Source of the DNA: Capsulimonas corticalis
GTDB lineage: Bacteria > Armatimonadota > Armatimonadia > Armatimonadales > Capsulimonadaceae
DNA length: 64,000 nucleotides
Assembly: GCF_003574315.2 (NCBI RefSeq)
Contig: NZ_AP025739.1
Location: 1,736,001-1,800,000, forward strand
Direction of reading: 5' to 3'
Shown: positions 54,826 through 60,863 of the stretch, piece after piece
Layout: each line of letters opens with the position of its first letter
Position numbering within the stretch: the stretch's first letter is position 1
Notes under the pieces: generated by a model
What the model saw: the letters and a program-made list of their open reading frames with translations, nothing else
Databases searched by the model: none
Told to the model about the DNA's origin: nothing
Position numbers and translations under genes: made by a program

Positions 54826-55056
54826 ATGAGTGACTGGGCGAATCAGCAGCTGCAAGAGCATGAAGATCGGCAGGCGGAGAAGATTGCGGAGGCGATCGAC
54901 CGCGATGCTCGCGCCCGCCATAACGAGGTTCACGGACCGCAGCCGTTTGACCAGACCGCGAAAACCGTGTTGATCTGGGCCGCGATCATCGTCATCGTCG
55001 CCATTCTAATGATTTGCCAGGGTATGTCGCTGAGCAATGCGCCAGCCCTACGTTAA
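54826..55056 (+). CDS. Small membrane protein on the plus strand
   Basis: 76 residues. A charged helical start (MSDWANQQLQEHEDRQAEKI) and a single C-terminal transmembrane helix (VLIWAAIIVIVAILMICQGM). GGGAG is upstream of the ATG at 54826; the frame is open from 54559, but that part is antisense to the tape measure. It is transcribed against the late operon, between the tape measure and chaperone genes, so it could be an independently expressed lysogeny gene (for example superinfection exclusion). That role is a guess. Confidence 0.55.
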   Translation: MSDWANQQLQEHEDRQAEKIAEAIDRDARARHNEVHGPQPFDQTAKTVLIWAAIIVIVAILMICQGMSLSNAPALR

Positions 55057-55064
55057 CGCATACG

Positions 55065-55319
55065 TCAGCCACCTTGCTGCTTCAGCATCATGCTCAGAAG
55101 CCCAGACTGCCGCTTGGCTTCGTAGTTCGCGTAGCTCGGGCACTCCTGAAGCATATGGACCGCGATGGCGCTATACGCCGTCAGCGGAGCCTTGAGCACA
55201 AAATCCCAGTCTCCCGAATGAGCCGCGCGCGCCCAGAGCAAAAAAGCCGCGCCGGCCTCGCGCGGCATTTCCCCGCAGTTTTCTAGGTATTCTTTGTGAT
55301 CACGGAGCGCAGCTTTTTT
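55065..55319 (-). CDS. T-part of a G/GT-type tail assembly chaperone (frameshift extension)
   Basis: The -1 frame is open from the slippery heptamer at 55313-55319 to the stop at 55065. After the slip it reads AALRDHKEYLENCGE, then MPREAGAAFLLWARAAHSG. It adds about 85 residues to the upstream protein. The ATG at 55268 lacks a convincing ribosome-binding site, supporting expression as a fusion. This matches lambda GT, which recruits tail tube subunits to the tape measure. Confidence 0.75.
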   Translation of the reverse strand, partial: KKAALRDHKEYLENCGEMPREAGAAFLLWARAAHSGDWDFVLKAPLTAYSAIAVHMLQECPSYANYEAKRQSGLLSMMLKQQGG

Positions 55320-55693
55320 AGCAGTTCCTGCTCCTCCACCGTCATCTCATCGCCCACCAGAGCACGAAGGCCAAACTCTGCGAGCACAGGGTAGGGCGCG
55401 GCCGTCTCCTTCGTCGAATTCCAATCCACAACAAGAGCCGACGCGAGATACTTTCCCTTGTGGAAGTGCATCGCATCGCGGTCATATGTCCCTGACGGTC
55501 CAATCAGCCCGGCGCGCGTGGCCGAGACGGATGCGTTGTACTCGTCCTCAGCGGTCGTCTCGCGCTTCACGGGAAATTCCCACGCATGGCGCAGGTTCTC
55601 TGGAGTGAGTTCGAACTGCTCCGGCGTGATGACGAGGTGCTTGCCCGCCAGCTTGACGGAGTGGATCGTGATGGTTTTGACAGCTTCGTTCAA
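55283..55693 (-). CDS. G-like tail assembly chaperone
   Basis: 136 residues, acidic, with FELTPENLRHAWEFPVKRETTAED and a helical end TVEEQELLKKLRSV. It lies between the tail tube and tape measure genes, the usual place of the frameshifting chaperone. CTA-AAA-AAG near its end holds A-AAA-AAG in phase for -1 slippage, and the slipped frame continues to 55065. The sequence identity to known G proteins cannot be checked here; position and recoding signal carry the call. Confidence 0.75.
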   Translation of the reverse strand: MNEAVKTITIHSVKLAGKHLVITPEQFELTPENLRHAWEFPVKRETTAEDEYNASVSATRAGLIGPSGTYDRDAMHFHKGKYLASALVVDWNSTKETAAPYPVLAEFGLRALVGDEMTVEEQELLKKLRSVITKNT

Positions 55694-60356: not shown

Positions 60357-60863
60357 TTAGGTCTGCAATCCGACCTTGGTCCAGGTCGGCTTCGCGGCGG
60401 TGCCCGTGTTAATGTAGGCGATCGCATTCGTGGTGTCCGTCAGCGATGCGCCGGGGAGCGAGCCGCGCGCGGTGCCAGAGACGCCATTTGTCGTGCTCGC
60501 CACCGATACGACGCCGCCAGTGGCGAGCGTGTTATCGACGGAGATCATCGGGACATCCAGGCCGCTGAGCTCGCCGCCGAACGTGCAGACGATCGGAGCG
60601 GTCCCAAGCGGTCCGCCGGTGCAGATGACGTTGCCGGCATTGATGGAGCCGAGCCCCTGGAGGGCCGTTTGCAGCGCGGCCGCGCTCACGTTGAAGGGGA
60701 GCTGAGCCGTCTGTCGGTTGCCATAGGTAAACGGGATGGTTCCGCCCGTCGCGGCTCCGGTGATGGTATGCACTTCGTCGACGCCATTGACGGGAGCGCC
60801 GGCGTTGTAGCGCGGCCCCAGTACGTTCGTCGAAATGTTGTTGCCGGGAGAATTGTTGGCCAT
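60357..60863 (-). CDS. Capsid decoration or head fibre-like protein
   Basis: 168 residues, Gly/Thr/Ala/Asn-rich beta protein. The middle (LPFNVSAAALQTALQGLGSINAGNV ... VCTFGGELSGLDVPMISVD) is a motif that recurs in many phage and surface proteins of unknown structure. It is encoded just after the major capsid protein, where decoration proteins usually lie. Confidence 0.55.
   Translation of the reverse strand: MANNSPGNNISTNVLGPRYNAGAPVNGVDEVHTITGAATGGTIPFTYGNRQTAQLPFNVSAAALQTALQGLGSINAGNVICTGGPLGTAPIVCTFGGELSGLDVPMISVDNTLATGGVVSVASTTNGVSGTARGSLPGASLTDTTNAIAYINTGTAAKPTWTKVGLQT

Follow-up and report, generated by a model that had tools for sequence, protein, structure and literature searches.

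The roles of gpG and gpGT of phage lambda have been described, and G-T frameshifting is widely conserved even though G/GT genes share little sequence (PMC5009743). The heptamer A_AAA_AAG is among the most shift-prone in E. coli, and a 3′ C favours slippage (PMC5009743). We analysed a stretch of 64,000 nucleotides of the Capsulimonas corticalis genome (the window) that contains a prophage. An earlier note on this DNA had claimed the lambda G/GT arrangement for two small overlapping reading frames, and the claim is supported, because sequence, phase and synteny all hold. It is very likely that the prophage makes short and long forms of a tail-assembly-chaperone-like protein by a programmed −1 frameshift of the lambda G/GT type.

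The G-like ORF (55693–55283, minus strand, 136 aa) forms the N-terminal part of the predicted fusion. It has a TTG start with AAGGAG located 7 nt upstream. Near its end the codons read GAA CTG CTA AAA AAG CTG CGC, with CTA at 55321, AAA at 55318 and AAG at 55315. The slippery heptamer A_AAA_AAG occupies 55319–55313 on the minus strand; its first base is the A of CTA, and its phase relative to the 0-frame is that needed for tandem −1 slippage. The position and phase given for it previously were re-read and are correct. The 0-frame stop, TAG at 55285–55283, lies nine codons past the heptamer. From 55346 onward the −1 frame has no stop until a TGA at 55067–55065, which agrees with the earlier description of a frame open to 55065, and the two frames overlap by 21 codons with the heptamer inside. 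After the slip, the T-like extension (55313–55065, minus strand) adds 82 codons, giving an 82-aa segment and a predicted fusion of 209 residues, in which ELLKK is joined to AALRDHKEYL at the junction.

For most ribosomes, translation of the G-like ORF would end at its stop codon (55283). In a minority, the lysine tRNAs that occupy the P and A sites at A_AAA_AAG would re-pair one base back on AAA AAA, and these ribosomes would then read the −1 frame as far as 55065, producing a GT-like fusion of 209 aa. By analogy with lambda, the G-like form would coat the tape measure protein, the T domain of the GT-like form would recruit the major tail protein, and both forms would leave before the tail is finished. 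We infer from the architecture that frameshifting actually takes place, how efficient it is, and that the products function as chaperones.

The motif is rare in the surrounding genes. The background was taken from the window itself, using sixteen ORFs regarded as prophage structural genes (6,355 codons), and the only in-phase A_AAA_AAR among these codons is the heptamer described here. The expected number in the 21-codon overlap is approximately 0.003, or approximately 0.02 for any XXX(AAA/TTT)N heptamer. These figures alone are not decisive, since the author of the earlier note may have looked specifically for motifs of this kind when choosing the site. The GC contents of the −1 part at the three codon positions (0.66/0.45/0.71) match those of the other phage genes (0.61/0.49/0.75) and are unlike those of the other two frames of the same DNA.

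When whole genomes of the order were searched, a match to the −1 frame turned up in a single other one (G015, 41% identity, E = 3e-9), an Armatimonadetes MAG from another genus of the same family (contig JAFAZD010000206.1). No match beyond this genome was found among 291 genomes of the phylum; the conservation discussed here is therefore that of one independent homologue (n = 1). The gene order in the homologue is major tail protein, a G-like ORF of 157 aa, the −1 frame and a 1,770-aa ORF of tape-measure size. The major tail protein genes are in the same place and are 33% identical over 302 aa, and the N-terminal regions of the window's G-like ORF and the 157-aa ORF are weakly similar (28% over 43 aa, E = 0.017). 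The 157-aa ORF ends with GAG GCG GAA AAA AAC GGC TGA, and an in-phase A_AAA_AAC (1689–1683 of homologue locus L004) is found at the same place as A_AAA_AAG in the window. The −1 frames share 41% identity over 61 aa, and the similarity starts at the slip site, where KK is aligned with KK. Conservation of the heptamer in related prophages had been proposed as a check on the frameshift, and one diverged homologue keeps it in phase, with A_AAA_AAC in place of A_AAA_AAG. Homologues without the heptamer, or with the two parts encoded far apart, had been named as evidence against it; this homologue has the heptamer, overlapping frames and a 41%-identical −1 frame.

Alternatively, the heptamer could be a coincidence and the downstream frame a gene of its own, whose translation begins at ATG 55268 by re-initiation or coupling. 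This in-frame ATG lies 14 nt past the 0-frame stop and has GGGG just upstream, but the GGGG is only 2 nt away, which is too close for a good ribosome site. Moreover, the similarity to the homologue begins upstream of ATG 55268, at the slip site. In the homologue, the −1 frame becomes open shortly ahead of the slip and a single codon separates the heptamer from the 0-frame stop, so that the frames overlap by only about six codons, heptamer included. The conserved stretch extends from about codon 1 to about codon 60 after the slip, but the first ATG, GTG or TTG in the −1 frame of the homologue is 53 codons after it, past most of that stretch. A separate gene is therefore very unlikely. Because no such codon precedes the greater part of the conserved stretch and the overlap is so short, a shift is the simplest route to the conserved protein, although the −1 frame of the homologue may start at a rare CTG or ATA codon.

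A single ORF split by a sequencing error or a real inactivating indel would also give two adjacent frames of one domain, since the indel could lie in the A run. The diverged homologue, from another genus, is broken in the same way at the corresponding position, which already contradicts this explanation, and an IMG/VR copy matches the region with 100% identity but may come from the same isolate. The probability of a split ORF is practically negligible. That the homologue keeps the heptamer and the −1 frame and has no canonical early start speaks against a sequencing error, against a pseudogene and against independent initiation downstream. The sequence architecture, its conservation and the homologue lacking a canonical alternative start are direct observations, and the homologue is decisive for a frameshift as far as sequence can settle the matter.

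Elements that may stimulate the shift differ between the two loci. In the homologue, an 11-bp hairpin (−16.8 kcal/mol) begins 6 nt after the heptamer; its z score is about −4 against base shuffles (35-nt windows) and −1.4 against dinucleotide shuffles (76 nt). Folding of the window downstream of the heptamer found no convincing stimulatory structure. An SD-like GGAGG (55337–55333, minus strand) lies 13 nt 5′ of the heptamer as a possible 5′ stimulator, with a predicted duplex with the anti-SD of −9.3 kcal/mol. It is only suggestive in this role because an equally good duplex is predicted at about 5% of in-phase sites drawn at random from the same genes. The base directly 3′ of A_AAA_AAG in the window is the slippage-favouring C. 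A strong heptamer without a hairpin in the window and a weaker heptamer with a hairpin in the homologue are consistent with balancing, these being two cases and not a test. A scan of tRNA loci found two host genes for tRNA-Lys(UUU) and one for tRNA-Lys(CUU) (loci L037, L042 and L050). The tRNA-Lys(CUU) may read part of the AAG codons and slip less well, thereby lowering slippage; this bears on the expected efficiency and not on the conservation argument.

The A run itself, six bases long (A6) in the window and seven (A7) in the homologue, raises the alternative that the fusion arises by slippage of RNA polymerase rather than of the ribosome. Runs this short usually give little polymerase slippage, which counts against transcriptional slippage, and the heptamer phase, the SD-like site and the homologue hairpin all fit ribosomal frameshifting. 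We regard transcriptional slippage as extremely improbable.

A terminator-like hairpin (55266–55240, minus strand) with 7 GC pairs followed by T6 is situated inside the −1 frame, 17 nt past the 0-frame stop. No other such site in 20 kb has as many GC pairs, and the homologue lacks a T run there. It is highly improbable that this is a real terminator overridden only by frameshifting ribosomes, through which the frameshift would also control transcription into the tape measure gene.

The flanking genes were named by position and size because profiles do not recognise them. The putative major tail protein gene (56694–55762, minus strand, 310 aa) is directly upstream and was named from its position. 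The putative tape measure protein gene (54771–51226, minus strand, 1,181 aa), assigned by length and position, had been expected next to the fusion. It is indeed the next gene on the same strand, but it is not directly adjacent; a gap of approximately 290 nt contains an opposite-strand ORF. The counterpart in the homologue (L007 1232–6544, minus strand, 1,770 aa) has marginal similarity to it (E = 0.001), and a BLASTP search with the first 72 residues of the tape measure protein gave no match. By eye, the two proteins look alike at their start: MANDDGIIGSTA in the window and MAESNDIFGTTA in the homologue. The small ORF in the gap (54827–55056, plus strand, 76 aa) is head-on to the fusion and has AGGGAG upstream; one membrane segment was noted in it by eye. 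The homologue also has an opposite-strand ORF there (L004 1247–1456, plus strand, 69 aa) with a good ribosome site, and comparison of the two ORFs found no sequence similarity. Profile matches to a prohead protease S78, an HK97-type capsid and a neck protein identify the surroundings as a tailed-phage morphogenesis module. The only tail-sheath match in the module is a weak one, of a 168-aa ORF at 60863–60357 (E = 0.005).

Searches of Pfam and PHROGs gave no significant match for either part of the fusion, the major tail protein or the tape measure protein. The AlphaFold2 model of the T-like part has five helices (pLDDT 82) and gave no fold match, and that of the G-like part is poor (pLDDT 44). 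Missing family and fold matches do not disqualify the pair from a class defined by architecture, because G/GT genes share little sequence. Searches of a phage collection and IMG/VR with the fusion, the −1 part, the major tail protein and the neck protein returned only the identical prophage or nothing; the capsid as a query added one further 4.5-kb contig and distant phage capsids. Among weak matches in other Armatimonadota, the three that were inspected (G080, G143 and G071, leaving out G195, G202 and G012) resemble ordinary cellular genes. No frameshift cassette shared with the host dnaX gene was evident on inspection of that region.

The pair belongs to its class by architecture, as a system working like lambda G/GT; no sequence relationship to lambda G is claimed. 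It is an ordinary programmed frameshift whose principle is long known, and its novelty is limited to adding a member from a phage lineage that has been poorly sampled. With it, the G/GT arrangement includes Armatimonadota prophages whose tail genes are missed by profile libraries, and their chaperone, major tail and tape measure genes are identified by position. In practice this helps annotation, in which the fusion is best entered as a joined CDS.

The locus resembles the lambda gpG/gpGT system in having its two overlapping ORFs between the major tail and tape measure protein genes, and in its predicted short and long products with a common N-terminus (PMC5009743). It differs in that the window proteins have no detectable similarity to those of lambda and the fusion and tape measure genes have an opposite-strand ORF between them. 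The E. coli dnaX cassette has the same A_AAA_AAG heptamer and an SD-like sequence upstream, but dnaX is a host gene rather than a phage tail gene, and the Capsulimonas host has the extra tRNA-Lys(CUU). The heptamer of lambda is G_GGA_AAG, which differs from that of the window, and dnaX also uses a downstream hairpin, which the window lacks. Mu-like siphophages with related capsids (Sinorhizobium phages StopSmel and Aussie and Microcystis phage Mwe-Yong1) also have two small ORFs between the major tail and tape measure genes; however, their tail chaperone pairs look unrelated to the window proteins, and inspection of the last part of the first ORF in these three phages turned up no in-phase heptamer of the A type. 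In Aussie, an in-phase GGGCCCG (L020, ~18132) is present and the −1 frame runs into the next small ORF; this may be the chaperone frameshift of that phage.
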